From: Alkaliphilus pronyensis
Lineage (GTDB): Bacteria > Bacillota > Clostridia > Peptostreptococcales > Natronincolaceae
Length of the DNA stretch: 64,000 bases
Assembly: GCF_009017275.1 (NCBI RefSeq)
Contig: NZ_WBZC01000010.1
Location: forward strand, 62,001-126,000
Reading direction: 5' to 3'
The position numbers and the translations under genes were made by a program. Of this stretch, positions 14,711 through 49,687 are shown piece by piece (the stretch's first letter is position 1; the number at the start of each line of letters is the position of its first letter). A model generated the notes under the pieces. The model was not told where the DNA came from. It ran no database searches and saw nothing but the letters and a program-made list of their open reading frames with translations.

Positions 14711-15585
14711 ATGATAGAAACTAGACTTGCAAGAAAAGAAGATATTAAAGAGCTTTCAATCTTCATATCAAGAATGAATAGAAATGAGGAAAATCATATA
14801 GGTTTTTGTGGAACTGACAGTAAAGAGATAGAAAATTCACTAGTTGAAGATATAACAGATATACCTTTCACAGAAAGTTTTATAATTGCCATTAATGATG
14901 ATAAAATTATTGGAGCGTTAGGATTCGATGCAGATATAGAAAGCAACAATGTTGAAATATGGGGTCCATTTATTGAGAAATCAAAATGGGATACTGTATT
15001 AGATTTATGGAGCAAGATGCTAGAATTAATTCCAAATGAAATAGAAATAATGAGCATGTTCATTAATAAAGAGAATAAAAACTGTATAGAGCTAGTAAAC
15101 AGTTTGCAGTTTAAAAGAGAAAGTGATCAGACAATATTATTTTTTGAACGTAGTTTTACTCATAAGTTAGAAAATATACCTATAATTGAGCTTTCTGCTG
15201 ACTATCATAAACAAATGGAGATCTTACATGATAACACATTTTCAAATGCATATTATAGCGGTAGCAAAATAATTGAAAGACTTAACAGTTATAGAAAAGT
15301 ATTTGTAGATATTGAAAAAGCAAGTTTAACAGGTTATGTCTATGTTGAAGTTAATCCGAGATTTGGAGAAGGAAGCATAGAATTTTTTGCTGTAGATAAA
15401 TCAAAGAGAGGTAAAGGTATCGGAGTTAAACTATTAACTATGGCATTAAAATGGATATTTCTTTTAATACAGTAAGTGAAATTACACTATGTGTTAATTC
15501 AGAAAATGAACAAGCGCTTAATCTATATAAGAGAGTTGGTTTTAAGGAAAAACATCAGTTAATCTATTACACTAAAAGGTGTTAA
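14711..15585 (+). pseudogene. Two-domain GNAT acetyltransferase broken by a frameshift near its end
   Basis: The ATG at 14711 follows AAAAGGAG. The frame encodes an N-terminal degenerate GNAT half (about 1-140) and a second GNAT domain with EFFAVDKSKRGKGIGVKLL, the acetyl-CoA loop, then stops at 15475. One base after about 15448-15462 is missing: the next frame continues as SFNTVSEITLCVNSENEQAL, then NLYKRVGF, the standard end of a GNAT domain, to a stop at 15585. The uninterrupted protein would be about 290 residues. As it stands, the last two strands are lost. Confidence 0.8.
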
Positions 15586-15622
15586 TTTGACACTTTAATT
15601 TGTTCTATTGAGGGGGATAAGT

Positions 15623-16174
15623 ATGGAAAATATAATATATCGTAATCTTACCATAGAGGAATGTGTTAGAATTAAAGAAATGAATCCTTATCAGTATATT
15701 AATAGAGCTTGGAGAGAGGTGGATGGGAAGCGCCAATTAGTAGAAATAGACTATCATGATACTGACTGGCCAAATGGTTATGAACATCATTACAATGATT
15801 TGAAGCAAACTATTATGGAGGGTGGTATAGCAATAGGAGCCTTTAATGATAATAAATTAATAAGTTTTATTACATTAAATTCAACCACGTTTGGATGCAG
15901 GTATAAGCATGTACTATTAGACCAGCTATTTGTGTCTCTTGATTCCAGAGGTAAAGGAATAGGAAAGAAGCTCTTTATGCTTTCAGTAGAGGAAGCAAAA
16001 AAATGGAAGATAGATAAGCTTTATATATGTGCAGGTTCAGCTGAAGAAACTATTGCCTTTTACTTTGCATTAGGCTGTAAAGAAGCAGAAGAAATCAACA
16101 AAGAGCTGTATGAAAGTGATCCTAGAGATCTCCAGTTAGATTTTGAAATAAATAAAGCGATAAACATGAATTAA
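15623..16174 (+). CDS. GNAT acetyltransferase
   Basis: Protein of 183 residues with a single GNAT domain in its second half: LDQLFVSLDSRGKGIGKKLF (strand beta-4 and the acetyl-CoA loop, about 98-117), then KLYICAGSAEETIAFYFALG (about 134-153). The N-terminal half contains REVDGKRQLVEIDYHDTDWP, which I do not link to a known substrate class. ATG 15623 has GAGGGGG upstream; an earlier in-frame TTG at 15608 overlaps that site. It follows the broken GNAT gene by 37 bases and may share its transcript. A dispersed repeat follows the stop. Confidence 0.8.
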   Translation: MENIIYRNLTIEECVRIKEMNPYQYINRAWREVDGKRQLVEIDYHDTDWPNGYEHHYNDLKQTIMEGGIAIGAFNDNKLISFITLNSTTFGCRYKHVLLDQLFVSLDSRGKGIGKKLFMLSVEEAKKWKIDKLYICAGSAEETIAFYFALGCKEAEEINKELYESDPRDLQLDFEINKAINMN

Positions 16175-16178
16175 CTAA

Positions 16179-16312
16179 TTATCTCAGCGGCGTTACTAAC
16201 ACTCCCGCTTCTTAAGAGGGAGATAAGTGCCGCCAAGCTTCGAAATAAGTGCAACTAAAGTTCAGGTGGAGTTAAAACTCCATCTGAACTAAGTTTTCTT
16301 TATAAGCAGTAA
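16179..16312 (-). repeat. Dispersed hairpin repeat, full copy B
   Basis: Reverse complement of the full copy at 49561-49684 with only a few differences. It contains the GC-rich hairpin (GGCGGC...GCCGC outer arms, TTAAGAAGCGGGAG inner) and the second hairpin with arms GTTCAGATGGAGTT and AACTCCACCTGAAC. The rest of the gap to 16431 is A+T-rich and shows no gene. Confidence 0.85.
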
Positions 16313-16431
16313 ATCAGCATGAAATAATTGGGTAGAATGGGTGACTTTTAACCAATATCTAAATTGTATGGCATCAACTACTTATAGCATTACATATTTG
16401 TACTTATAATTAGTGAGAATAGGGGGATTTT

Positions 16432-17058
16432 ATGACTGTATTATACTTAACAAGACACGGACAAACAGAATGGAACCTTGAAGGAAGATTTCAAGGACAA
16501 AAGGATTCAAAGCTAACAGAATTAGGAGAACAACAGGCGATTTTGCTTGGAGAGCGATTAGATGATGTTGAACTTGATATTATTATCTCTAGCTCAAGCG
16601 GTAGAGCCTATAGGACAGCTGAGTTAATAAAGGGCAGAAAAAACATAGAAATATTAGCTAATGATCAATTAAAGGAAATGAATATAGGCGATTGGGAGGG
16701 TCAAATTATTAAGGAGATAGAAGAGCATTCACCAGATGAGTACCATTGCTTCTGGAATAGACCAGATTTATTTAAGCCCTGTGGTGGTGAAACATTTGGG
16801 CAGCTTTATGAAAGAGTTACGCAAGAAATAGAAAAGATTATCAAAATATATAAGGGGAAAAAAGTTCTTGTGGTTACCCATGGAGTAGTATTAAGGACCC
16901 TAATCACTTATTTTGAAAACAAAGATATTAAAGACCTATGGAATGGAACCTACATGAACTCAACCTGTTTAAATATAATTGAAATTAATAATAATGAGAG
17001 AAGGTTCATTTTGCAGGGAGATATATCCCATTGGGAGAATATAGTTAGCTGTAGCTAA
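16432..17058 (+). CDS. Histidine phosphatase (phosphoglycerate mutase-like)
   Basis: Protein of 208 residues of the histidine phosphatase superfamily. It opens with LYLTRHGQTEWNLEGRFQG, where the RHG histidine is the phospho-acceptor. It also has ISSSSGRAYRTAELI (second Arg), EMNIGDWEGQ (acid) and VVTHGVVLRTLI (second His near residue 150). Relatives include GpmB-like phosphatases, alpha-ribazole phosphatase (CobC) and broad-specificity PhoE; no cobalamin genes lie next to it. AGGGGGA precedes the ATG. It ends 40 bases before the sigma-54 regulator gene and could be cotranscribed with it. Confidence 0.85.
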   Translation: MTVLYLTRHGQTEWNLEGRFQGQKDSKLTELGEQQAILLGERLDDVELDIIISSSSGRAYRTAELIKGRKNIEILANDQLKEMNIGDWEGQIIKEIEEHSPDEYHCFWNRPDLFKPCGGETFGQLYERVTQEIEKIIKIYKGKKVLVVTHGVVLRTLITYFENKDIKDLWNGTYMNSTCLNIIEINNNERRFILQGDISHWENIVSCS

Positions 17059-17098
17059 TACTTAGTTTACTACTACATTGCATCGGGAGGTGAATGCC

Positions 17099-18502
17099 AT
17101 GAAATCTAAAAAAATGATAATGGCTATACTGCAAAAAATTTTGCAGTCAATAGATGAAGGAGTTCATGTTCTTGATAATGATGGAAAAACCATACTATAT
17201 AATGATGCAATGGCAGACCTCGAGGGTATGGATAGGAAGGATGTAATGGATAAAAGCCTATTGGAGGTTTTTACCAGCCTCAATCAGGAGACGAGCACTT
17301 TATTAAAGGTTTTAAAAACAGAGAAACCAATATATAATCAAAGTCAAACATACCTAAATAATCAAGGAAAAAAAATTACTACTATTAATACGACAATACC
17401 TCTTTATTATATGAATGAAAAAATTGGGGCTTTAGAAATAGCAAAAAATATTACCAAAATACAGATCTTATCAGAGGAAATAATAAGACTTCAACAGCAG
17501 TTAATTCCAAATAAAAGTACTAAGGGGAAAGAAATTCAAAAATACACCTTTGAAGATTTGAAGGGTAGAAGTCAGGTTTTTCTCGATGCTGTAAAAATTG
17601 CTAGAAGAGCTGCAAACACATCATCCTCAGTTTTGTTATACGGTGAAACAGGAACAGGTAAGGAGCTTTTTGCCCAAAGTATACATTATCAAAGCACTAG
17701 AAAGCATAAGCCCTTTGTGGCCCAGAACTGTGCTGCTCTGCCAGAGAGCTTGTTGGAGGGCATTCTATTTGGTACTACAAAGGGAAGTTTTACAGGTGCG
17801 ATTGATAGACCAGGCCTGTTTGAACAGGCAAATGGCGGTACAATACTTTTAGACGAGATTAACTCAATGGGCTTACTGCTTCAAGCCAAGCTATTAAGAG
17901 TATTGCAAGAGGGCTATGTAAGAAGAATAGGTGGCTTAAAGGAAATACCTATAGATGTTCGTATTATTGCTACTACAAATGAAGAGCCAATGGAAATAAT
18001 CGAAAAAGGCAAGTTACGCAAGGATTTATATTATAGAATTAATGTTGTTAATATATTTATTCCACCCTTAAGAGATAGAAGGGAAGATATAGTTCTTTTA
18101 ACAGAATTTTTTATAAATAAATTTAACAATAAACTAGATAAGGATGTTTGGATGCTTACAGAGGCTATGCAAAAACACTTTCTAAAATATAAATGGCCAG
18201 GTAATGTAAGGGAGCTAGAGAATTTAATTGAAGGTGCCATGAACATAATCCACGATGAGCATATTTTAAAGGAGGAGCATTTTCCCCATTACATTTTTGA
18301 CGAAATTAATGTTTGTGAAGGTTTAACTAACGATTTTACTAATATAGAAGCAATGGGACTTAATGATGTATTACAAGCTGTAGAACGAAAGCTTATTGAG
18401 GCTAATCTTAAAAAGTTCAATGGTAATATAAGTAAAGCAGCCAATAGCTTAAATATAAAAAGGCAAACACTTCAGCATAAATTAAAAAAATACCAGATAT
18501 AA
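17099..18502 (+). CDS. Sigma-54-dependent transcriptional activator (PAS-AAA+-Fis), likely regulator of ornithine fermentation
   Basis: Activator of 467 residues. An N-terminal PAS domain (about 10-130: ILQSIDEGVHVLDNDGKTIL) probably senses a small ligand. The AAA+ core follows, with Walker A GETGTGKE at about 182, the sigma-54 contact loop GSFTGA at about 230 (usual GAFTGA), Walker B GGTILLDEI near 250 and an RDLYYRINV arginine-finger region. A Fis-type HTH (GNISKAANSLNIKRQTLQHK) closes the protein. The start at ATG 17099 has GGGAGGTG upstream. Downstream lie twin palindromes, a sigma-54 promoter and the ornithine operon, so ornithine or a related metabolite is the likely inducer (inference). 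Confidence 0.92.
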   Translation: MKSKKMIMAILQKILQSIDEGVHVLDNDGKTILYNDAMADLEGMDRKDVMDKSLLEVFTSLNQETSTLLKVLKTEKPIYNQSQTYLNNQGKKITTINTTIPLYYMNEKIGALEIAKNITKIQILSEEIIRLQQQLIPNKSTKGKEIQKYTFEDLKGRSQVFLDAVKIARRAANTSSSVLLYGETGTGKELFAQSIHYQSTRKHKPFVAQNCAALPESLLEGILFGTTKGSFTGAIDRPGLFEQANGGTILLDEINSMGLLLQAKLLRVLQEGYVRRIGGLKEIPIDVRIIATTNEEPMEIIEKGKLRKDLYYRINVVNIFIPPLRDRREDIVLLTEFFINKFNNKLDKDVWMLTEAMQKHFLKYKWPGNVRELENLIEGAMNIIHDEHILKEEHFPHYIFDEINVCEGLTNDFTNIEAMGLNDVLQAVERKLIEANLKKFNGNISKAANSLNIKRQTLQHKLKKYQI

Positions 18503-18545
18503 CGCAAATATATTTGCATATTAAAGCAAATATATTTGCGTTTTT
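18503..18545 (+). promoter_or_regulatory. Twin 14-bp palindromes: terminator and/or activator binding sites
   Basis: The self-complementary 14-mer GCAAATATATTTGC occurs twice, at 18504-18517 and 18526-18539, with centres 22 bp apart (about two helical turns). As RNA the two copies fold into one perfect hairpin followed by TTTTT, a terminator for the regulator gene. As DNA they lie about 245-270 bp upstream of the -24 element of the ornithine promoter, a usual distance for sigma-54 enhancer sites. Confidence 0.6.
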
Positions 18546-18610
18546 GCTTGTATTTTGCTTATCTATTATACATTAGGCGTATATTCATATCATATCTATT
18601 GAAAAATAAT

Positions 18611-18690
18611 ACTTATCCCAGCGGCGTTACTAACACTCCCGCTTCTTAAGCAATAGATAAGTGCCGCCAAGCTAGAAAGTAAGTGAAACT
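18611..18690 (-). repeat. Dispersed hairpin repeat, copy C (right half)
   Basis: Reverse-strand copy of the GC-rich half of the repeat (GGCGGCAC...TTAAGAAGCGGGAGTG...ACGCCGCTGG). The inner stem is damaged: TATTG replaces the CTCCC side. It lies between the twin palindromes and the sigma-54 promoter, so it lengthens the enhancer-promoter gap. Confidence 0.8.
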
Positions 18691-18774
18691 TAGCTATTTT
18701 TATTAATACTATTTATTTTTAAAAAACTAATTATAAAGAAAACTCTGAATAATAATTCAAAATATATATTATTT

Positions 18775-18790
18775 TGGCAAGATACTTGCA
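18775..18790 (+). promoter_or_regulatory. Sigma-54 (-24/-12) promoter of the ornithine operon
   Basis: TGGCAAGATACTTGCA fits the -24 GG/-12 GC consensus with exactly ten bases between GG (18776-18777) and GC (18788-18789). A transcript would start near 18801, about 36 bases before the ord start codon. The sigma-54 activator gene directly upstream supports it. Confidence 0.85.
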
Positions 18791-18836
18791 ATAGTAATAA
18801 AAGAAATAATATCAATAAGTATTGGAGGAATATTAG

Positions 18837-19883
18837 ATGAAAAATGTAAAGGTTTCAATCTGGGGCTTTGGTGCTATGGGAAGTGGTATGGCTAAAATGC
18901 TATTGAAGAAAAAGGGTGTAGAAATAGTAGGGGTATGTGATAGAAACAAGGCTAGAGTAGGAAAAAGCATGTATGAAGTACTAGGAATAGAAAGAGAAGA
19001 TAGACCAGAGGTAATAATTAATCCTAATATTGAAGAGGTATTAACAGAGGGAAGCTGTGATGTATGTCTTTGTGCAACTGACTCCTTTACTAAAAGTGCA
19101 TTTCCACGACTTAAACTGGCATTAGAGAAAAAGGTTAATGTAATTTCTACTGCTGAAGAAATGGCATATCCTCAAGCTCAAAATCCTGATTTAGCAGCAG
19201 AATTAGATAGAATTGCAAAGGAGAATGGCGTTTCAATTCTTGGTACAGGCATTAACCCTGGATTAATAATGGATTTATTAGTTGTTTGTCTAACAGGGTG
19301 TATGGTAGATGTAGAACACATAGAAGCTAAAAGGGTAAACAGCTTATCACCATTTGGACCTGCAGTTATGGAGGAGCAAGGTGTAGGTATAACTGTAGAT
19401 GAATTTAATAAGGGTGTAGAGGAAGGCACCTTAGCTGGACACGTAGGGTTTGCTGAATCAATAGGAATGATTGCTGATGCAATTGGCTGGAAGGTCGATA
19501 AGTTTCAACAGCAAATGAAGCCGATTGTTACAACTGTTGACAGAAAATCCCCCTATGGATTTGCTGCTGCAGGGAATGTAGCCGGAGTTAACATGACAGC
19601 ACAAGGCTGGGTTGACGGTGAAGTTAAACTAGATATGATACATCCACAGCAAATTGAGCCTGAAATGGAAGGTACAGAAACTGGTGATTATATTGTAATA
19701 AAGGGTACTCCCTCTATCAACATGGCAAACAAGCCAGAGGTTGAAGGTGGACTTGGTACTATAGCTATGTGTGTTAATATGATTCCTCATGTTATAAATG
19801 CCTCTCCTGGTTTAAAAACCATGTTAGATTTGCCAGTACCAAGGGCAATAATGGGAGATATGAGAGATTTAATACAAAGGTAG
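18837..19883 (+). CDS. ord: 2,4-diaminopentanoate dehydrogenase
   Basis: Oxidoreductase of 348 residues with a DapB-like Rossmann fold (VSIWGFGAMGSGMAK at the N terminus). In ornithine fermentation it oxidatively deaminates (2R,4S)-2,4-diaminopentanoate to 2-amino-4-oxopentanoate with NAD(P)+. The body contains ILGTGINPGLIMDLL and the C-terminal half has the substrate-binding part typical of this family. GGAGG lies eight bases before the ATG. It is first in the operon behind the sigma-54 promoter; ortA follows 9 bases later. Assignment rests on family recognition and on the complete pathway downstream. Confidence 0.9.
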   Translation: MKNVKVSIWGFGAMGSGMAKMLLKKKGVEIVGVCDRNKARVGKSMYEVLGIEREDRPEVIINPNIEEVLTEGSCDVCLCATDSFTKSAFPRLKLALEKKVNVISTAEEMAYPQAQNPDLAAELDRIAKENGVSILGTGINPGLIMDLLVVCLTGCMVDVEHIEAKRVNSLSPFGPAVMEEQGVGITVDEFNKGVEEGTLAGHVGFAESIGMIADAIGWKVDKFQQQMKPIVTTVDRKSPYGFAAAGNVAGVNMTAQGWVDGEVKLDMIHPQQIEPEMEGTETGDYIVIKGTPSINMANKPEVEGGLGTIAMCVNMIPHVINASPGLKTMLDLPVPRAIMGDMRDLIQR

Positions 19884-19892
19884 GGATGTACA

Positions 19893-20201
19893 ATGAATGC
19901 TAAGAAGGGAACATGGGTACGAATCCACGATATTGTTTTAACAGCAGAAGAAAGATCTCCTAACATACCTGATGATACCAAGAAAGTACCCCTAGAAATG
20001 TGGACAAAGGGCTTTATTCTTCAAGATGCATCAATTGGAGATATTGTTGAAGTTAAAACTATTACAGGAAGAAAAGTTAAAGGAAGGCTAGTGGAAATTA
20101 ACCCATATTATAGCCACAATTTCGGAGAATTCGTGCCAGAGCTGTTGGAAATAGGGCTCCAGTTAAAGACCTTACTGTGGGAAGGTGATAAAAATGAGTA
20201 A
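19893..20201 (+). CDS. ortA: 2-amino-4-oxopentanoate thiolase, alpha subunit
   Basis: Small subunit of 102 residues. With OrtB it cleaves 2-amino-4-oxopentanoate with CoA to acetyl-CoA and D-alanine. The peptide KGTWVRIHDIVLTAEERSPN at the start and GRLVEINPYYSHNFGEFVPE near the end are recognisable OrtA features. There is no cofactor motif, consistent with PLP residing in OrtB. It overlaps the ortB start by eight bases, implying translational coupling and equal production of both subunits. Confidence 0.9.
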   Translation: MNAKKGTWVRIHDIVLTAEERSPNIPDDTKKVPLEMWTKGFILQDASIGDIVEVKTITGRKVKGRLVEINPYYSHNFGEFVPELLEIGLQLKTLLWEGDKNE

Positions 20202-21612
20202 AAATAGTTATGAAGCAGTAATGTCAAGGAAAAGTGAAATAATGAAAAAGGCTGTCGGAATTGACTTTAGTAAATTTGAACATGGTAAAATTTCCTTTGA
20301 TTATGAAAGAATGATGAGGGAAACAGGCTATTCGTTAGTTGAAATGCAAAAAATTCAAGGGGAGGCAGGAGTCGGAAACACTCCCCTATTGGAGTTAAAG
20401 AACCTTACTGCATTAGCAAGAAAGCTTGCTCCTAAAGGTAAAGGTGCCAGAATTTTTATTAAGGATGAGGCCTCCAACCCTTCTGGTAGCTTTAAGGCGC
20501 GAAGGGCAGCAAATGCTGTATACCATGCAAAAAAATTAGGTTATAGGGGTGTAATTGCTGCTACTAGTGGTAACTATGGTGCTGCAGTAGCCAGTCAAGC
20601 AGCAATACATGGTTTAAAGTGTATTATTGTTCAAGAATGCTATGACAGCTCCTTAAAGGGTCAGCCAGAAATCATTGAAAAGGCTAGAAAATGTGAAGCC
20701 TACGGTGCAGAGGTAGTACAATTAACAGTTGGCCCAGAATTATTCTATACATTCCTTAAGCTTCTTGAGGATACTGGATATTTTAACGCTTCGTTGTATA
20801 CTCCATTCGGAATAGCTGGAGTTGAAACGTTGGGTTATGAGCTAGCCACTCAGTTCAGAGAATATGTTGGTAAAGACCCAGACGTAGTTGTTTGTACAAA
20901 TGCAGGAGGCGGTAACTTAACGGGAACAGCTAGAGGTTTAATAAAGGCAGGTGCAGAAGAGGCTCAAGTTGTGGGGGCTAGTGTTAATCTTCATGGCTTA
21001 CATATGGCAAGCGATGAACAATTTAATAAAAAATCCTTTACAACTGGTCACACAGGGTTTGGAATACCCTTCACAACATGGCCAGATCGTTCAGATGTTC
21101 CCCGTTCAGCAGCAAGACCATTAAGGTATATGGATAGATACCTTTTGGTTAATCAAGGAGAAGTATTCTACATGACAGAAGCTTTAGCACAGCTGGAAGG
21201 CTTAGAAAGAGGTCCTGCTGGTAACACTTCCCTAGCAGCTGCCTTTAGCATAGCACAGGAGCTTGAGGAGGATAAAATCATTGTTTCTCAAGAAACTGAG
21301 TATACGGGAGCAGGTAAGCATATTCAGCCACAGTTATCCTTTGCTAAGGAAAACGGCATAGAGGTTAAGCTTGGTGATCCGAAGGATGAGATTCCAGGTA
21401 AAAATATTATATTACCTAAGCATCCTAAGCTAATTAAAGCAAAGGATTTAGACTTAAATAATATTAGGAAATCCTATATAAAAAATTGCTTATCAGTCAC
21501 TAAGGCAGAAGAGCTAAGCAAAGAGGACATAGAGTTTCTAGCTATAGAAACTAAAACTAATGTAGAGTATGTACAAAAGACTATAGACGAAATTAAATGT
21601 AAAAAACTATAG
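20194..21612 (+). CDS. ortB: 2-amino-4-oxopentanoate thiolase, beta subunit (PLP enzyme)
   Basis: PLP-dependent subunit of 472 residues of the threonine-synthase/tryptophan-synthase-beta fold. The PLP lysine sits in NPSGSFKARRA at about residue 98, the phosphate loop is TNAGGGNLTG, and TSGNYGAAVA is the substrate-binding turn. It works with OrtA to release D-alanine and acetyl-CoA. Start at ATG 20194 has GGGAAGG upstream; an in-frame GTG at 20185 overlaps that site. The gene is intact and of family length. A 50-base gap with AGGAGGAGG precedes oraS. Confidence 0.92.
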   Translation: MSKNSYEAVMSRKSEIMKKAVGIDFSKFEHGKISFDYERMMRETGYSLVEMQKIQGEAGVGNTPLLELKNLTALARKLAPKGKGARIFIKDEASNPSGSFKARRAANAVYHAKKLGYRGVIAATSGNYGAAVASQAAIHGLKCIIVQECYDSSLKGQPEIIEKARKCEAYGAEVVQLTVGPELFYTFLKLLEDTGYFNASLYTPFGIAGVETLGYELATQFREYVGKDPDVVVCTNAGGGNLTGTARGLIKAGAEEAQVVGASVNLHGLHMASDEQFNKKSFTTGHTGFGIPFTTWPDRSDVPRSAARPLRYMDRYLLVNQGEVFYMTEALAQLEGLERGPAGNTSLAAAFSIAQELEEDKIIVSQETEYTGAGKHIQPQLSFAKENGIEVKLGDPKDEIPGKNIILPKHPKLIKAKDLDLNNIRKSYIKNCLSVTKAEELSKEDIEFLAIETKTNVEYVQKTIDEIKCKKL

Positions 21613-21662: not shown

Positions 21663-22040
21663 ATGAAGGGCAGCTTTAAAAGAGATGACGATTATAATGA
21701 AAGAAGAAAGCATCTAGCTAATCTTTCTGATGAGGAGTTAAAGCAAAGGTTTTGGGACTTGGCGGAAAAGGCTGTAGAACCTTTGTTAGAGTTAGCTAGA
21801 ACCCATACAACACCCTCTGTTGAGCGTTCTATTCTTTTAAGAATGGGTTTCTCAAGCTTAGAGGCTAAGCCTTTAGTTGAAGGAGCTATAGATAGAGGCT
21901 TAATTAGCAAAGGTGTAGGTCATGTTGTATATAGAATATCTAAAGAAAAGAATATCCCCCTTAGACAAGCTGGCTTAGAAATGCTTGAAGGTAAGCATTG
22001 GGAAGATGCTGTAGCAATCTTTAGAGGAGGGAATCAGTAA
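21663..22040 (+). CDS. oraS: D-ornithine 4,5-aminomutase, S subunit
   Basis: Protein of 125 residues, the small subunit of the adenosylcobalamin- and PLP-dependent aminomutase that converts D-ornithine to (2R,4S)-2,4-diaminopentanoate. The segment EPLLELARTHTTPSVERSIL and the ending GKHWEDAVAIFRGG are recognisable in OraS. AGGAGGAGG lies upstream. Its last base is shared with the first base of oraE (TAATG overlap), which couples the subunits. Confidence 0.92.
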   Translation: MKGSFKRDDDYNERRKHLANLSDEELKQRFWDLAEKAVEPLLELARTHTTPSVERSILLRMGFSSLEAKPLVEGAIDRGLISKGVGHVVYRISKEKNIPLRQAGLEMLEGKHWEDAVAIFRGGNQ

Positions 22041-24256
22041 TGAAAAAGGTAGATATAAATGAAAAAATGGATATTAGGGAAATACTAAGTGATTTAGAGA
22101 ACTATAGACCTAAAAGAAGAGGCTGGACATGGAGAAAGAAGGTAGATAACCTTACAGAAGGTCCACATACCTATTCTGATTGCTCTGAGCCATTAAAAAA
22201 TTCAATAGGTATTCCTGCTGCTGTTAGATATTTTGAAAACCTAGACCCACAGCCACAAGAAACAATTACTACAGAAATAGCTTCAGGTAGATTCGAAGAT
22301 GATATTCGTCGTATGCGTATGGCTGCGTGGCATGGTGCAGATCATGTAATGGTTATTAGAACTGCTGGACAATCCCATTATGATGGACTTATTGAAGGCT
22401 CTCCTCAAGGTATTGGAGGTATCCCTGTTACGAGAAAGCAGGTGAGGGCCCAGAGAAAAGCATTGGACTTTATTGAAGAAGAAGTTGGTAGACCAATAAA
22501 TTATCATTCCTATGTTTCAGGGGTTGCGGGACCTGATATTGCGGCTATGTTTGCAGAAGAAGGGGTCAATGGTGCCCATCAAGATCCACAATATAATGTT
22601 TTGTATAGAAATATTAACATGGTCAGATCCTTTGTTGATGCAGCTGAGTCTAAAAAGGTAATGGCATGGGCAAATATGGCACAAATTGACGGGGCCCATA
22701 ATGCAAATGCTACAGCTAGAGATGCCTGGAAGGTTATGCCTGAGCTTATGGTTCAGCACGGAATTAACTCTATTTTTTCCCATAAGGTTGGTATGAAAAA
22801 AGAAGATATTTGTCTTTCTACTGTACCACCATCAGCTGCTCCAGTACCCTGTACTAAGTATGATTTACCCTATGCAGTAGCATTAAGAGAGCTTTTCTCT
22901 GAGTACAAGATGAGGGCCCAACAAAATACTAAATATATTACATCCTCCTCAAGAGAAGCTACAGTAACCCATGTTATGAATATGATGATCTCTAAGCTTA
23001 CAAGTGCTGACATACAATCTACAATTACTCCAGATGAAGGAAGAAATGTACCGTGGCATATCTATAACATTGAAGCATGTGATACTGCAAAGCAAACTCT
23101 AGTTGGTTTAGATGGACTATTGGAAATGGTTGAGCTAAAAAAAGAAGGCTATTTACCAGATAAGGTTAGAGAGCTAAAGGAAAGGGCTGTTCTATATCTT
23201 GAGGAGCTTCTTGAGGTTGGAGGTTATTTTGAGGCAGTAGAAAAAGGATTTTTTGTTGACTCTGGAATGTATCCAGAAAGAAATGGCGATGGTATTGTAA
23301 GAAAAATAGATGCTGGAATCGGAGCAGGAAAGGTGTTTGAAAGAGATGAAGATTATATGGCACCAGTAACTGCCCACTACGGATATAATAATGTTGCTCA
23401 ATATGATGAGTCTGCTGCGGATAACCCTTCAAAGCTAATTGATGGCTCAACACTAGAAAAACCAGAGAAGATAATTTATATAGATGAGTTAGACGAAAAC
23501 GATAATGTCCAAAATCGTATGGCTGAATCAGAAAAGTATAGAAATACAAACCTTATTAAGCCTGAAGTAGAATGGCTGGCCGATGGAACTGTTCAACTAG
23601 AATTATTCCTACCAACAAGCAGAAGAGTTGCTGAATTTGCAGCTATAGAATTTGCTAAGAAAATGAATTTAGTAGACCCTGAAGTAATACACTCTGAAGT
23701 ATTGCATCCATCTGAGGGAACAAGAGTTCAGATTAAAGGCAAGGTAGAATTTGATCTTGATATTTCAACCCTAAGTATTCCTGAAGAGCCTGAAGTTATG
23801 GGGGATGAAGAGCTTTGGGAGGAAATAGAAAGAAAACCTCTAAAGGTGGTGGCTGCAACCGTTGGTGAAGATGAGCATTCTGTTGGACTTCGTGAAGTAA
23901 TAGACATAAAGCATGGTGGAATTGAAAAATGGGGTATAGAAGTAGAATATCTAGGAACCTCTTGTCCAATAGAAAAGCTAGTAGATGCTGCTATAGAATT
24001 GAAGGCAGACGCTATACTTGCATCTACTATAATAAGTCATGATGACGTACACTATAAAAACATGAAAAAGATTCATGAATATGCTATAGAAAAGGGTGTA
24101 AGAGAAAAGCTTATTATTGCTTGCGGAGGTACTCAAGTAACACCTGAAATTGCAGTGCAACAGGGTATAGATGCAGGGTTTGGAAAAACAGCTAAGGGCG
24201 TACACGTTGCTACATTTTTAGTTAAGAAAAGAAGGGAACTAGAAAATGAAAATTAA
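22040..24256 (+). CDS. oraE: D-ornithine 4,5-aminomutase, E subunit
   Basis: Catalytic subunit of 738 residues. The N-terminal TIM-barrel part (about 1-400) contains AAWHGADHVMVIRTAGQSHY and FSHKVGMKKEDICLSTVPPS, regions that bind PLP and substrate. The C-terminal Rossmann domain (about 600-738) carries GEDEHSVGLREVID, a D-x-H-x-x-G cobalamin-binding motif whose His is the lower axial ligand, followed by ASTIISHDDVHYKNM. It needs OraS. Length matches the characterised enzyme class. The next gene overlaps its end by 11 bases. Confidence 0.95.
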   Translation: MKKVDINEKMDIREILSDLENYRPKRRGWTWRKKVDNLTEGPHTYSDCSEPLKNSIGIPAAVRYFENLDPQPQETITTEIASGRFEDDIRRMRMAAWHGADHVMVIRTAGQSHYDGLIEGSPQGIGGIPVTRKQVRAQRKALDFIEEEVGRPINYHSYVSGVAGPDIAAMFAEEGVNGAHQDPQYNVLYRNINMVRSFVDAAESKKVMAWANMAQIDGAHNANATARDAWKVMPELMVQHGINSIFSHKVGMKKEDICLSTVPPSAAPVPCTKYDLPYAVALRELFSEYKMRAQQNTKYITSSSREATVTHVMNMMISKLTSADIQSTITPDEGRNVPWHIYNIEACDTAKQTLVGLDGLLEMVELKKEGYLPDKVRELKERAVLYLEELLEVGGYFEAVEKGFFVDSGMYPERNGDGIVRKIDAGIGAGKVFERDEDYMAPVTAHYGYNNVAQYDESAADNPSKLIDGSTLEKPEKIIYIDELDENDNVQNRMAESEKYRNTNLIKPEVEWLADGTVQLELFLPTSRRVAEFAAIEFAKKMNLVDPEVIHSEVLHPSEGTRVQIKGKVEFDLDISTLSIPEEPEVMGDEELWEEIERKPLKVVAATVGEDEHSVGLREVIDIKHGGIEKWGIEVEYLGTSCPIEKLVDAAIELKADAILASTIISHDDVHYKNMKKIHEYAIEKGVREKLIIACGGTQVTPEIAVQQGIDAGFGKTAKGVHVATFLVKKRRELENEN

Positions 24257-25610
24257 TGTACTGGTGGCTGAAATAGGCAGTACAACAACTGTTGTTAATG
24301 GTTTTCAAGATATTTTTACCTCCTGCCCTAAGTTTATAGGGCAGGGTCAAGCTCCTACATCTGTAGCTGAAGGTGATGTAAATATAGGCTTAAAGGCAGC
24401 TGTAGATGATTTAACTAAAAGGCTTGGGGTTACAAGTATAAAGTATGATGAAATGCTTGCAACCAGCAGTGCAGCCGGTGGCCTAAAAATGACTGTTCAT
24501 GGATTAGTTCATGATATGACTGTAAGGGCTGCTAAGGAGGCTGCCCTTGGTGCAGGGGCCATAATCCATCAAATAACAGCTGGAAGGATAAAAAGAACTG
24601 ACATAAAAAGGCTTAAGGAAATTCAACCTAATATTATTTTAATAGCAGGTGGAGTAGATTACGGTGAGAGGGATACTGCAATATACAATGCTGAAAGAAT
24701 TGCAGAATTAGATTTAAATGCTCCAGTTATATATGCAGGTAATATTGAAAATCAAGAAGAAATAAAGGAAATATTTGCAGAAAAAGCAGTTAAGCTATAT
24801 TGTGTAGAAAACGTGTATCCTAAAATTGATCAGCTAAATATTGAACCCACAAGAAAAGTTATTCAAGATGTTTTTGAAGAGCATATTATTCACGCACCAG
24901 GTATGTTAAAGGTTAGAGAAATGGTTAATGGACCTATAATTCCTACACCTGGAGCAGTAATGGAGGCTTCTAAGCTTTTGATGGAGGAAATTGGGGGTCT
25001 AATAACCTTTGATGTAGGTGGTGCAACTACAGATCTACATTCGGTAACTGAAGGTAGTGAGGAGATAAATAGGATTCTAATAAGTCCAGAGCCCGTTGCA
25101 AAAAGGACTGTTGAAGGAGATCTAGGGGTTTATGTAAATATGGAGAATATAGTTGATAGGATTGGAAAAGATCTATTAGGTAAAAAGCTTTCTAAAGACA
25201 TAGACCTTCTTATAAAGGAGCATACACCTATTCCTAAAACCCCTCAGCAAATTGAGTTTGTAGAGGCTTTAACACAGGAGGCAGTGTTAACAGCTTTAGA
25301 ACGACACGCAGGGAAGCTTAGATTTTTATATGGGGCAGGGGGAAAAACTAAGGTTGCAGAAGGTAAAGATTTATCCAGCGTAAAGTATATTATTGGAACA
25401 GGTGGTGCCTTAACAAGACTACCAAAGGGCAAGGCTATTTTAAGTAGTATTAAAGAAAAAAGCCTAATAAATATGCTTTATCCAAATAATGAGGCCACTG
25501 TATTAATAGACAACAACTATATTATGGCTTCTTTAGGGGTATTGTCAAAGCCACACCCAGAGGCTGCACTTTATCTGTTAAGGGAAAGTCTGAGAATAGA
25601 TGAGGAGTGA
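24246..25610 (+). CDS. MutL-type ASKHA protein of the ornithine operon (possible B12-aminomutase maintenance factor)
   Basis: Protein of 454 residues of the MutL family named from glutamate mutase operons, not the mismatch-repair MutL. The ATPase fold of the actin/Hsp70/sugar-kinase type is visible: VAEIGSTTTVVNGF (phosphate 1), LIAGGVDYGERDTA, GGLITFDVGGATTDLHSV (phosphate 2), and YIIGTGGALTRLP (adenosine region). Family members accompany adenosylcobalamin mutases and are thought to help reactivate or load them. It overlaps oraE by 11 bases, which supports a role with the aminomutase. The function has not been shown from sequence. Confidence 0.85.
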   Translation: MKINVLVAEIGSTTTVVNGFQDIFTSCPKFIGQGQAPTSVAEGDVNIGLKAAVDDLTKRLGVTSIKYDEMLATSSAAGGLKMTVHGLVHDMTVRAAKEAALGAGAIIHQITAGRIKRTDIKRLKEIQPNIILIAGGVDYGERDTAIYNAERIAELDLNAPVIYAGNIENQEEIKEIFAEKAVKLYCVENVYPKIDQLNIEPTRKVIQDVFEEHIIHAPGMLKVREMVNGPIIPTPGAVMEASKLLMEEIGGLITFDVGGATTDLHSVTEGSEEINRILISPEPVAKRTVEGDLGVYVNMENIVDRIGKDLLGKKLSKDIDLLIKEHTPIPKTPQQIEFVEALTQEAVLTALERHAGKLRFLYGAGGKTKVAEGKDLSSVKYIIGTGGALTRLPKGKAILSSIKEKSLINMLYPNNEATVLIDNNYIMASLGVLSKPHPEAALYLLRESLRIDEE

Positions 25611-25614
25611 AAGG

Positions 25615-26688
25615 ATGAATCCACGAATTGATATTAACTTAGCTAAGCTAAAATATAATAGTAATTTAATAGTAGAAAAAGCCAATAGGTTTTCCATAGA
25701 TGTTGCTGCTGTTACTAAGGGCTTCTGTGGAAACCCAGTAATTGCAGAAGCTATAGCAGAGGGTGGCGTAAAATATTTAGCTGATTCAAGACTTGAAAAC
25801 CTATTGAAAATGCAGCACATTAAGCTTGAAAAAATACTATTAAGGCTGCCAATGCTTAGTCAAGTAAAAGAAGTAGTAAAATATGCAGATATTAGCTTAA
25901 ATTCAGAGCTTGAAACTATAGTTGCTTTAAATGAAGCAGCTAAAGAGCAAAACAAAACCCATAAAATAATACTAATGCTAGATTTAGGTGATTTAAGGGA
26001 AGGTATTTTTGATGAAAAAGAGCTTGATGCAGTTATTAAATACCTTTTAAAGCTTAACAACATTGACCTTGTAGGCATTGGCACTAATTTAACCTGCTTT
26101 GGTGGAGTAATTCCAACAAAAGAAAACCTAGGGGAGTTAATAAACAGTGCAAAAAGGGTTGAAGAAACTATGGGAAAACCCCTAGATATTATAAGTGGTG
26201 GTAACTCCAGTAGCTTTTATTTAATTAATAATTCTGAAATACCTCCCGAAGTAAATCATCTAAGGTTTGGTGAGGCTATACTTTTAGGTACTGAAAGTAC
26301 TTATGGAAGAGATATTCCAGAAGCATATCAAGACACCTTTAAACTAGTAGCAGAAATAATTGAAATTAAAACAAAGCCCTCAGTTCCAATAGGTGAAATA
26401 GGAAGAGATGCATTTGGAAATGTGCCTACCTTTGAGGATAAGGGCTTAATGAAAAGAGCCATACTAGCAGTAGGTAAGCAGGATATATCAACCCACACCA
26501 TTATTCCCTGTGATAAAGAAGCAGAGGTACTTGGAGGCAGCAGTGATCATTTATTAATGGATTTAACCCATTGCAAAAAAGACTATAGGGTTGGAGATGA
26601 AATGATCTTTAATCTTACCTATGGTTCAATGCTGGCACTAATGACAAGTGAATATGTTCATAAAAACTATATTAATAGTATTGAGTAG
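25615..26688 (+). CDS. orr: Ornithine racemase
   Basis: PLP enzyme of 357 residues with the alanine-racemase N-terminal barrel. AAVTKGFCGNP at about residue 35 holds the PLP lysine, and GGNSSSFYL is the phosphate-binding turn. It converts L-ornithine to D-ornithine, the substrate of OraSE, the entry step of the pathway. Start at ATG 25615, with GAGGAG upstream; it follows the MutL-like gene by four bases. The yhfX-type alanine racemase family is the alternative, but operon position makes Orr very likely. An imperfect hairpin follows (26718-26754). Confidence 0.93.
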   Translation: MNPRIDINLAKLKYNSNLIVEKANRFSIDVAAVTKGFCGNPVIAEAIAEGGVKYLADSRLENLLKMQHIKLEKILLRLPMLSQVKEVVKYADISLNSELETIVALNEAAKEQNKTHKIILMLDLGDLREGIFDEKELDAVIKYLLKLNNIDLVGIGTNLTCFGGVIPTKENLGELINSAKRVEETMGKPLDIISGGNSSSFYLINNSEIPPEVNHLRFGEAILLGTESTYGRDIPEAYQDTFKLVAEIIEIKTKPSVPIGEIGRDAFGNVPTFEDKGLMKRAILAVGKQDISTHTIIPCDKEAEVLGGSSDHLLMDLTHCKKDYRVGDEMIFNLTYGSMLALMTSEYVHKNYINSIE

Positions 26689-26767: not shown

Positions 26768-27169
26768 TTAAATAAAGGCAAGTACAAGCATAATCATATA
26801 AAGGGTATGAATATGCTCCTGCTGCTGCTTAATTTCGATTGACAAGCTGTCTCTTTCCTTTACCAAGTTCTCTATCTTAATGTTTAATGAATCTATGTGA
26901 TCAATATCATTCTTAAACTCATTGTATTTCTGAATTTGATACTCTAATTCATCTAGCCTAGTAGTTGCTGAAAAAAGCTCAGATTCTTTTAATTCCAATT
27001 GCTGCTTAGCAAAATCCAGCTTTTCCTTAAGCTCCTCTAATTCATTTAGTAATTTTGAGTTATGTAATAGTTGTGCATTATCATCCTTTACTGAAGCAAG
27101 TGTAGAATTATTTTTTAAATCTTCAGCCTTTGGAACAAAATTATAGCTAACTTGTTGATATTTCATCAT
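26768..27169 (-). CDS. Coiled-coil protein with C-terminal hydrophobic tail, unknown function
   Basis: Protein of 133 residues. After a short polar start, residues about 35-110 form a strong predicted coiled coil (LLNELEELKEKLDFAKQQLE with heptad leucines), and the last dozen residues are hydrophobic (TLYMIMLVLAFI). It ends immediately after that stretch, like a tail-anchored protein. GGAGG lies eight bases before ATG 27169. It overlaps the 3' end of the upstream gene by 23 bases, so the two are coupled. No family recognised. Confidence 0.65.
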   Translation of the reverse strand: MMKYQQVSYNFVPKAEDLKNNSTLASVKDDNAQLLHNSKLLNELEELKEKLDFAKQQLELKESELFSATTRLDELEYQIQKYNEFKNDIDHIDSLNIKIENLVKERDSLSIEIKQQQEHIHTLYMIMLVLAFI

Positions 27170-28187
27170 CAATATCACCTCCAAGCCCTAAAAATTGAAT
27201 TGTAGGATAAAGGGTTCCATAAAAGCTATCACCAATTATTCTATTCATATTATTATTAGTTACAAACTTATATCTTTTAAAATTTACTAGCTTACTTTTT
27301 TCAATTATCTTAACAGATGACCAATTTTCTCCATAATCTTGACTTGTACATTTCACTAAATGATTATATTGATACCATATAACAAATGCTACATCATTAT
27401 AAAAAAGAATGTGGGGATAGGAGCAATTAAGCTTATTCTCTGATAGCTGTTTAGGTTCAATTAATATTTTGTTTTCCTTTAAGTCCAGCTTAGTATAATT
27501 CACAGAAAGCTGGTCTTTATCATAGTTACACCATGTTATATGTAGGCTGTTGGTATTATCTATTACACCATCTAAATATAGCTTGTTAACAGAAGTATCT
27601 GTAATTTTAAACGGTTTTTCCCACTCCTTAGTAGCTTCATTAAGCTTTACTAAGAATATTTCCTCCTTATTCTCTACTAATGAAGTAAACAAGACATAAA
27701 TACTTTTGTCTATTGAAAAAACCTTAAATGGATTAACAAAACCTTGAAAGTCAACAGATAGTACTGTAGCTTCAACTGCTTTATTTTTTTCGAATTTTAT
27801 TACCTTTAATCTACATATATTTTTTTGTAATTCTTTTTGATAAAAAAATAGGTAAGTATAGCTATCATGATAAATACAATAGGGATATAGAAGTTTTTCT
27901 TCCTTCAAACTTAAGCTTAAGGAAGCCTTTTGTAACCATTTCTTCTTTTTATAGATATAGTAATTTATCCTATTTTTATCCTCTGTATTAAAAAGATGAA
28001 TATTATCTTTAGGGTCAATTGTAGCAGCAAAGCTATGGGATGTATCTTGAGTAATTAAATGGGAGTCGGTCCATTTATTCTTAGTTGAGGATAAACACCT
28101 TATTTGGTTTTTGTCATCCATATAAATGTTAAATAAATCATTATTTGAAGAGCATAATAAAAATTCCATATTTCCTATAAAAGCCAA
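27147..28187 (-). CDS. Beta-propeller-like (sialidase-fold) protein of unknown function
   Basis: Protein of about 346 residues with repeated strand patterns spaced 45-50 residues apart. Several resemble blades of a sialidase-type propeller: SHSFAATIDPKDNIHLFNTE, NTNSLHITWCNYD, DVAFVIWYQYNH, then TSQDYGENWSSVKI, close to an Asp-box (SxDxGxxW). No signal peptide or catalytic Arg triad is evident. The TTG at 28187 is one possible start; ATG 28169 is another, and neither has a good ribosome-binding site. It is divergent from a putative spore-coat gene and coupled to the coiled-coil gene, so a spore-surface role is possible (inference). Confidence 0.6.
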   Translation of the reverse strand: MAFIGNMEFLLCSSNNDLFNIYMDDKNQIRCLSSTKNKWTDSHLITQDTSHSFAATIDPKDNIHLFNTEDKNRINYYIYKKKKWLQKASLSLSLKEEKLLYPYCIYHDSYTYLFFYQKELQKNICRLKVIKFEKNKAVEATVLSVDFQGFVNPFKVFSIDKSIYVLFTSLVENKEEIFLVKLNEATKEWEKPFKITDTSVNKLYLDGVIDNTNSLHITWCNYDKDQLSVNYTKLDLKENKILIEPKQLSENKLNCSYPHILFYNDVAFVIWYQYNHLVKCTSQDYGENWSSVKIIEKSKLVNFKRYKFVTNNNMNRIIGDSFYGTLYPTIQFLGLGGDIDDEISTS

Positions 28188-42588: not shown

Positions 42589-42651
42589 ATTAAAACACCT
42601 CCTAATTAACATTAATAAAGGCAAGACCATAAAGGACTTACCTAAAGTTTG

Positions 42652-42702
42652 GCTCACTTATTTTCCGCTTAAGAAGCGTGAGGGTTAGTAACACTACTAA
42701 AT
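42652..42702 (+). repeat. Dispersed hairpin repeat, degenerate copy D
   Basis: CACTTATTTTCCGCTTAAGA and then AGCGTGAGGGTTAGTAACAC match the right-hand half of the repeat at 49561-49684 with several changes; the outer GGCGGC arm is gone. It lies in the leader of the interrupted ATP-grasp gene. Confidence 0.65.
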
Positions 42703-49564: not shown

Positions 49565-49684
49565 AGAAAACTTAGTTCAGATGGAGTTTTAACTCCACCT
49601 GAACTCTAGTTGCACTTATTTCGAAGCTTGGCGGCACTTATCTCCCGCTTAAGAAGCGGGAGTGTTAGTAACGCCGCTGAGATA
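49561..49684 (+). repeat. Dispersed hairpin repeat, full copy E (reference copy)
   Basis: About 124 bases in two hairpins. The left one has arms GTTCAGATGGAGTT and AACTCCACCTGAAC around TT. The right one has inner arms CTCCCGCTT and AAGCGGGAG with outer GCGGC and GCCGC. The same sequence occurs at 16179-16312 (inverted, nearly identical), and partly at 18611-18690, 42652-42702 and 4017-4080. No transposase is linked. Confidence 0.88.
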
Positions 49685-49687
49685 AAA

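Follow-up and report, generated by a model that had tools for sequence, protein, structure and literature searches.

Two palindromes between ordR and the ornithine operon of Alkaliphilus pronyensis as a probable OrdR enhancer overlapping a predicted ordR terminator

Two identical palindromes separate the regulatory gene ordR from the ornithine operon of Alkaliphilus pronyensis. On the comparisons presented here, they most probably constitute the enhancer (UAS) through which OrdR would drive the sigma-54 promoter of ord, with the same DNA acting as the ordR terminator and a further site inside ordR allowing the regulator to restrain itself. The window, i.e. the whole stretch of 64,000 nucleotides that was analysed and to which all positions refer, belongs to a genome of 3.06 Mb in 94 contigs; in the nearest relative compared, a member of the same genus, ord is 96% identical.

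A preliminary description of this DNA had proposed a gene for a PAS-AAA+-Fis activator, followed by a -24/-12 promoter and then by the whole ornithine operon. Profile searches agreed on both sets of genes. Specifically, PAS, AAA+ and Fis-type HTH domains were found in the product of 17099-18502, and ord-ortA-ortB-oraS-oraE-or4-orr were recognised by NCBIfam or Pfam scores downstream of the -24/-12 element, up to position 26688. The NCBIfam cut-offs were exceeded by ord, ortA, ortB, oraE, or-4 and orr, while the NCBIfam profile search gave no match for oraS. The genes are the following:

17099..18502, plus strand: ordR, with PAS, sigma-54 activator AAA+ and Fis-type HTH domains (Pfam PF00158 at 212 bits, HTH_8, PAS)
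18837..19883, plus strand: ord, 2,4-diaminopentanoate dehydrogenase (NF040740, 545.8 bits, cut-off 400)
19893..20201, plus strand: ortA, 2-amino-4-oxopentanoate thiolase subunit (NF040739)
20185..21612, plus strand: ortB, 2-amino-4-oxopentanoate thiolase subunit (NF040741)
21663..22040, plus strand: oraS, D-ornithine 4,5-aminomutase small subunit (PF16552, 180.8 bits, above the Pfam cut-off)
22040..24256, plus strand: oraE, D-ornithine 4,5-aminomutase large subunit (NF040743)
24246..25610, plus strand: or-4, GlmL-related ornithine degradation protein (NF040744)
25600..26688, plus strand: orr, ornithine racemase (NF040742)

The operon probably ends at orr, because two overlapping open reading frames on the opposite strand (26768-28187, minus strand) come next in the list of ORFs. 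No nhaC-like gene was noticed in that list directly after orr, unlike in the operon named in the accessible text of PMC6615313. As for the regulator, its likely start is the ATG at 17099, the listed ORF beginning earlier, at a TTG (17078), and its TAA stop codon occupies 18500-18502. OrdR of the window carries the Walker A sequence GETGTGKE and the loop motif GSFTGA, a variant of GAFTGA. Among 55 OrdR-like proteins, the loop reads GSFTGA in 29, GGFTGA in 20, GAFTGA in 3 and GAFTGS in 1, and no such motif was found in the remaining 2. The genome contains rpoN, and 17 places in it match the sigma-54 activator domain.

The palindromes and the promoter element of the ordR-ord gap are the following:

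18504..18517, no strand assigned: palindrome 1, GCAAATATATTTGC, probable OrdR enhancer site, predicted from sequence and conservation
18526..18539, no strand assigned: palindrome 2, GCAAATATATTTGC, probable OrdR enhancer site, predicted from sequence and conservation
18774..18790, plus strand: -24/-12 (sigma-54) promoter TTGGCAAGATACTTGCA, predicted from sequence and shared by 57 of 58 loci that have OrdR in view

Palindrome 1 starts one base past the ordR TAA. The preliminary description, which had reported two identical 14-bp palindromes with centres 22 bp apart, was exact to the base, and its -24/-12 element with 10-base GG-GC spacing was verified at 18774-18790. In particular, TTGGCAAGATACTTGCA has its GG at 18776-18777 and its GC at 18788-18789, with 10 bases between them.

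Throughout the 3.06-Mb genome, the exact 14-mer GCAAATATATTTGC occurs three times, namely in the pair and once on another contig (C8), and the palindrome doublet occurs only once. The form GCAAAWWWWTTTGC has five copies (the pair, the C8 copy, one internal to ordR at 17131-17144 and one on contig C49), against none for the reversed control. According to our reading of the ORFs, the C8 copy sits in a small zinc-ribbon-like frame. We considered it as a second OrdR target and rejected the idea, because the site stands alone and the surrounding 8 kb contain no match to ord or OrdR.

To follow the palindrome in relatives, 114 ord loci were collected; four (L001-L003 and L034) were excluded, leaving 110, and merging of near-identical upstream regions left 103 distinct ones, in which we counted occurrences of GCAAANNNNTTTGC with at most one mismatch. 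An OrdR-like gene was in view in 58 distinct loci, of which 57 contain at least one site, 54 at least two, and 57 a good -24/-12 element; the sites total 132, against 3.95 in shuffled sequences. Thus conservation of the palindrome in front of ord orthologues, one of the two points on which the preliminary description had staked its reading, is borne out. The 45 loci without OrdR in view, some of which are short contigs, contain 41 sites against 2.85 in shuffles, with at least one site in 18 loci and at least two in 16.

Joint occurrence of palindrome and promoter was scored in the 101 regions of at least 300 nt, two shorter ones being left out of the 103. Both elements were found in 70 regions, neither in 26, the promoter only in one (L075) and the site only in four. 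The 26 regions with neither indicate that ord by itself does not bring the palindrome motif, and the co-occurrence supports the sigma-54 circuit that had been proposed for this locus. In L075, OrdR, the -24/-12 element and ord are all present and the spacer is without a site; another inverted repeat follows ordR, and the site within the ordR gene is exact.

The 167 sites hardly vary in the five outer bases of either side, and A or T predominates at the four central positions. Neighbouring sites are spaced by 20-24 bp in 59 of 66 pairs. The distance from site to promoter, 243 bp in the window, has a median of 129 and a range of 46-348 over 71 loci.

A blind search for the doublet in 297 genomes of the order found it in 108, and its reversed control in none; among the matches listed, two genomes have two copies and all others one. 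At all 30 of the places whose genomic context was examined, a subset of those found, ord starts no more than about 520 bp downstream. Within the order, the doublet is a marker of a single operon. Together with the counts given above, this means that the conserved putative sites are tied to ord and to its predicted -24/-12 promoter. As a separate observation, four of the ord loci (L080, L082, L098 and L099) come from metagenome bins labelled Spirochaetes, and in three of them (L082, L098 and L099) ord is accompanied by an OrdR-like gene, sites and a -24/-12 element. This points either to transfer of the module between phyla or to mislabelled bins.

The predicted circuit of the window is already known in print, and the Alkaliphilus locus is a further case of it, since OrdR, sigma-54 and ord are connected in the accessible text of both PMC6615313 and PMC7438776, the only relevant papers returned by word searches of the open-access literature on OrdR. 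In the former, control of the ord operon by sigma-54 and OrdR is predicted in five Clostridiales species, and the UAS motif of OrdR is described as distinct from those of other groups. One of these five species, Geosporobacter ferrireducens, was among our loci; its promoter is present, together with two exact sites. In the consulted part of PMC7438776, OrdR is named and a -24/-12 promoter is mapped upstream of ord in C. difficile; in its table, the ord entry for the sigL mutant reads 'NR', and identical -24/-12 letters are given for hadA and ord.

These published promoter letters match in 5 of 393 genomes of the order. In three of the five, all of one genus (G100, G105 and G117), they lie 62 bp upstream of ord, and ord is absent from the other two matching loci. 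In the three genomes, a single full site, contained in AAAGAGCAAAATATTTTGCTC (with GT for AT in the middle in one of them), precedes the promoter by 119-120 bp, and AAAGAGCAAAATATTTTGCTC ends with a run of eight T in two genomes and of seven in the third. Such a single site in AAAGAGCAAAATATTTTGCTC can, by its predicted pairing, fold as its own terminator. The promoter letters were observed once in each of these genomes (L197, L198 and L199), upstream of ord; as they occur once per genome and at ord, the hadA entry in that table may be a copying slip.

The window thus shares with the OrdR/sigma-54 regulon of both papers a Fis-type sigma-54 activator encoded beside ord, upstream sites, and a -24/-12 element driving the ornithine oxidation operon, but neither the enhancer-terminator overlap nor the site within ordR seen here appears in the accessible text of those papers. 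Among named NCBIfam models, the best for OrdR is that of PrdR, the sigma-54 activator of proline reductase, which has a similar domain plan; however, the regulator of the window scores far under the PrdR cut-off (403.8 vs 795 bits), and PrdR sites, according to the accessible part of PMC6615313, are of the TGT-N10-12-ACA type, whereas those described here are GCAAA-N4-TTTGC.

We then turn to the structure that the two palindromes can form at the end of ordR:

18501..18547, plus strand: terminator-like hairpin of ordR formed by both palindromes, with a 17-bp stem and an 8-base loop, followed by a T-rich stretch (folding, terminator scan, covariation)

The 66-nt stretch containing the pair has a minimum free energy of -22.3 kcal/mol (z -5.2), and none of 200 shuffles was as good. 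A terminator scan of 16900-19000 returned two sites on both strands together, 1.1 being expected, and this hairpin was the sole one on the plus strand. Like ordinary intrinsic terminators, it follows a stop codon and consists of a stem, a short loop and a T-rich tail, but it differs from them in its few GC pairs (5 of 17) and in arms whose letters do not change from genus to genus, as would be expected of a sequence recognised by a protein. By itself, the hairpin is no proof, because any two palindromes in tandem will fold onto one another.

More informative are the bases flanking the sites, which were compared in 66 pairs of adjacent sites with a spacing of 18-30 bp; as control, partners were exchanged at random among loci. 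Outside the sites, the flanks pair on average over 3.5 bases in a row, compared with 1.0 in shuffles (sd 0.18, highest 1.8 of 2000); with one pair kept per ord cluster at 80% (16 pairs), the values are 2.88 and 0.84 (sd 0.33, highest 2.19 of 5000). For flank bases 1, 2 and 3, Watson-Crick pairing across the hairpin was found in 45, 48 and 39 of the 66 pairs, against 16, 21 and 20 within site 1 and 21, 26 and 37 within site 2. At bases 1 and 2, this excess of cross-hairpin over within-site pairing argues that the flanks are not simply part of a longer protein site; at base 3, pairing within site 2 nearly equals that across the hairpin. The site middles are exact reverse complements of each other in 36 of 66 pairs, compared with 9.3 in shuffles (highest 19): 20 are self-palindromic and 16 inverted only, with 5 direct only and 25 neither.

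Covariation was assayed on a 20-bp helix in the 22 ungapped pairs spaced by exactly 22 bp. Paired cells amount to 92%, against 78% in shuffles, and 54 cells have changed on both sides, against 18. The covariation score is 0.319, compared with 0.091 (sd 0.016) in shuffles, which ignore relatedness, and with at most 0.085 in slid versions of the helix, which keep it. Outside the sites, the compensatory column pairs 5/44 (AU, CG and GC) and 6/43 (CG, AU and UA) stand out; covariation of the middle columns is partly due to both sites being palindromes. In L051, one conserved base has been lost from each site and the pairing of those bases is retained. Altogether, constraint on the pairing of the predicted hairpin is well supported by these comparisons.

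Whether this pairing goes with the end of a gene was assessed in two ways. Among 48 loci, chosen for an OrdR match that extends to residue 460 at most 700 bp from ord, 44 contain a terminator-like structure in the ordR-ord spacer. One or more full sites are part of the strongest structure in 36 loci, and both sites are in 26 (these three counts being without shuffle control); 12 loci have no terminator-like structure with a full site, and a site-free structure occurs in 13. Lone sites are often lengthened into a hairpin of their own followed by a T run, as in L055, L067 and L068. The second assay covered 59 loci whose last pair is spaced by 18-25 bp, the preceding gene being taken as the longest nearby ORF, so that single assignments may be wrong, as that of L083 probably is. 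An outer stem with a T run was present in 31 of the 42 pairs lying at most 60 bp after the end of a same-strand gene, against 3 of the 17 others (p 0.0001, with thresholds of our own choosing). In 7 of the 42 the preceding gene is other than ordR, and stem and T run are present in 6 of these. Because the loci are related, the test was thinned: random subsets with ord below 90, 85 and 80% identity gave median p values of 0.008, 0.19 and 0.58. In four loci (L014, L016, L099 and L102) the pair lies close behind ordR and itself has no terminator features.

Termination is the natural reading of what this predicted pairing serves, and the proposal that one sequence may act as both enhancer and terminator gains from flank pairing and covariation, the gene-end tie weakening on thinning. 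We consider it unlikely that the enhancer reading is right and the outer pairing stems from an inverted duplication that took in the flanks, or from some DNA structure, instead of from selection for termination. The loss of significance of the gene-end tie under strong thinning fits such an origin, as does the readiness of tandem palindromes to fold on each other; yet the flank pairs of columns 5/44 and 6/43 switch among AU, CG, GC and UA and stay paired, the single-site loci just named extend their site into its own hairpin and T run, and stem and T run are found in 6 of 7 cases in which a gene other than ordR ends at most 60 bp before the pair.

A third palindrome was found within the regulatory gene, 32 bases into it:

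17131..17144, no strand assigned: GCAAAAAATTTTGC, inside ordR at codons 11-16, probable autoregulatory OrdR site (predicted; sequence and synonymous resampling)

We compared 29 ordR genes, those in which the match begins no later than residue 17, with synonymous resamplings of the same proteins. An exact site lies at the same place in 11 of the 29, with 0.15 expected, and a site with at most one mismatch in 13, with 1.31 expected; it is absent from 18 of the genes. The peptides encoded over it differ (LQKILQ, MQNILH, VQSILP, AQNILR and MQIILQ). After thinning by ord at 80, 85 and 90% identity, 3, 7 and 8 of the 11 sites are left. Over 55 ordR coding regions, exact sites were seen 11 times at the codons 11-16 place (0.12 expected) and 9 times around residue 407 (3.3 expected); elsewhere in these regions none was seen and none was expected. 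In L083 and L103, an exact site lies 80 and 39 bases, respectively, before the place aligned on residue 1 of the 474-residue frame. The site around residue 407 was observed in L037-L040, L015, L019, L022, L025 and L029, in most of them about 207 bp upstream of the enhancer pair; the peptide AKxFA explains part of it, and we regard this second in-gene site as weak. In conclusion, the putative site at codons 11-16 is kept beyond the need of the protein sequence and, because it exceeds the synonymous expectation, OrdR probably regulates its own gene through it.

It appears quite improbable to us that the palindromes are bound by a protein other than OrdR, be it a repressor of the ord operon or a global regulator acting on it. 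With 17 places in the genome matching the sigma-54 activator domain, similar proteins do exist; but the motif tracks ord with a sigma-54 promoter and not ord generally, 26 of 101 regions being without both, the doublet is single here and in nearly all other genomes having it, a further copy lies within ordR itself, and a distinct UAS motif is assigned to OrdR in the accessible part of PMC6615313. Very improbable indeed is a pair that is the ordR terminator only, with palindromic arms as a by-product of hairpin selection and OrdR binding elsewhere: the hairpin does covary and both sites make up the strongest structure in 26 of 48 loci, but a terminator does not need identical arm letters, of which the outer five bases are nearly invariant over 167 sites, and sites are kept where no such terminator forms (L014, L016, L099 and L102), where the preceding gene is on the other strand (L044, L049, L050, L053, L054, L070 and L074), and inside ordR.

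Returning to the reading of the pair as OrdR enhancer and ordR terminator, we infer that OrdR is the binding protein and ornithine or a product the signal, and likewise looping, termination, insulation and autoregulation. OrdR dimers would occupy both sites as neighbours on the same face of the helix, and would assemble into an active ATPase, the PAS domain presumably sensing ornithine or a product of it. Looping of the DNA over about 243 bp would bring OrdR to the sigma-54 polymerase at 18774-18790, leading to promoter opening and switching ornithine oxidation on. The end of the ordR message would fold as its terminator on the gene's own enhancer, and ordR ending there would limit stray sigma-A transcription into ord. 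Through the site at codons 11-16, OrdR would restrain its own synthesis.

A more elaborate version of this scheme is conceivable, and we advance it tentatively, judging it unlikely: the fused element would be a regulatory device, in which bound OrdR alters the termination of ordR (e.g. as a roadblock) and the in-gene site throttles synthesis, so that OrdR abundance is felt at both ends of the gene. If true, enhancer, terminator and feedback point would be united in one motif that is kept across many genera.

The gap between pair and promoter contains one more element:

18613..18690, plus strand: shortened copy (78 bases) of a dispersed repeat (repeat search)

The repeat family is about 130 nt long with two hairpin-like parts (36 copies aligned), and the genome contains at least 40 copies (40 or 41 matches among 40 scored; 97 to 162 candidates). 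Other copies within the window lie at 16176-16256 (plus strand), 49608-49685 (minus strand) and, more weakly matched, 42646-42692 (minus strand). Searches of 19 other genomes of the family gave no match in 18 and two weak matches in one (G008), and the repeat is absent from the aligned ordR-ord gap of two near relatives. The preliminary description had it that a dispersed repeat entered the gap; its presence holds, and its entry is only partly shown. The gap of 337 bp exceeds those of the two near relatives (329 and 317) by only 8-20 bp, which does not bear out a clean insertion. An Rfam search of 15000-20000 returned four matches, all under the gathering score and all to eukaryotic families. 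We also considered the repeat as the ends of a TnpB element and dropped the idea, since the 3.2-kb locus of the sole PF07282 match in the genome gave repeat matches of 8-17 bases, i.e. at chance level.

What goes beyond ordinary annotation here is the putative fused enhancer-terminator together with the site in ordR, found across the family. Word searches of open-access papers returned nothing apt on either an enhancer overlapping a terminator or in-gene autoregulation, which falls short of proving their absence from print. The locus offers a clean case of a protein-binding sequence and an RNA hairpin seemingly selected together in the same DNA, and related genomes seem to have retained these letters as a stop signal for the preceding gene. 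As changes to the outer stem can leave the sites intact, and changes to the sites can spare the stem, the putative enhancer and terminator roles would be separable at the bench. Ornithine oxidation is, according to the accessible text of PMC8803604, an energy route of amino-acid-fermenting Clostridia, gut species included. For this route, our analysis provides explicit letters, GCAAA-N4-TTTGC, as a pair or single, for likely OrdR sites in many genera, and with these letters known the OrdR regulon would be readable from sequence alone.
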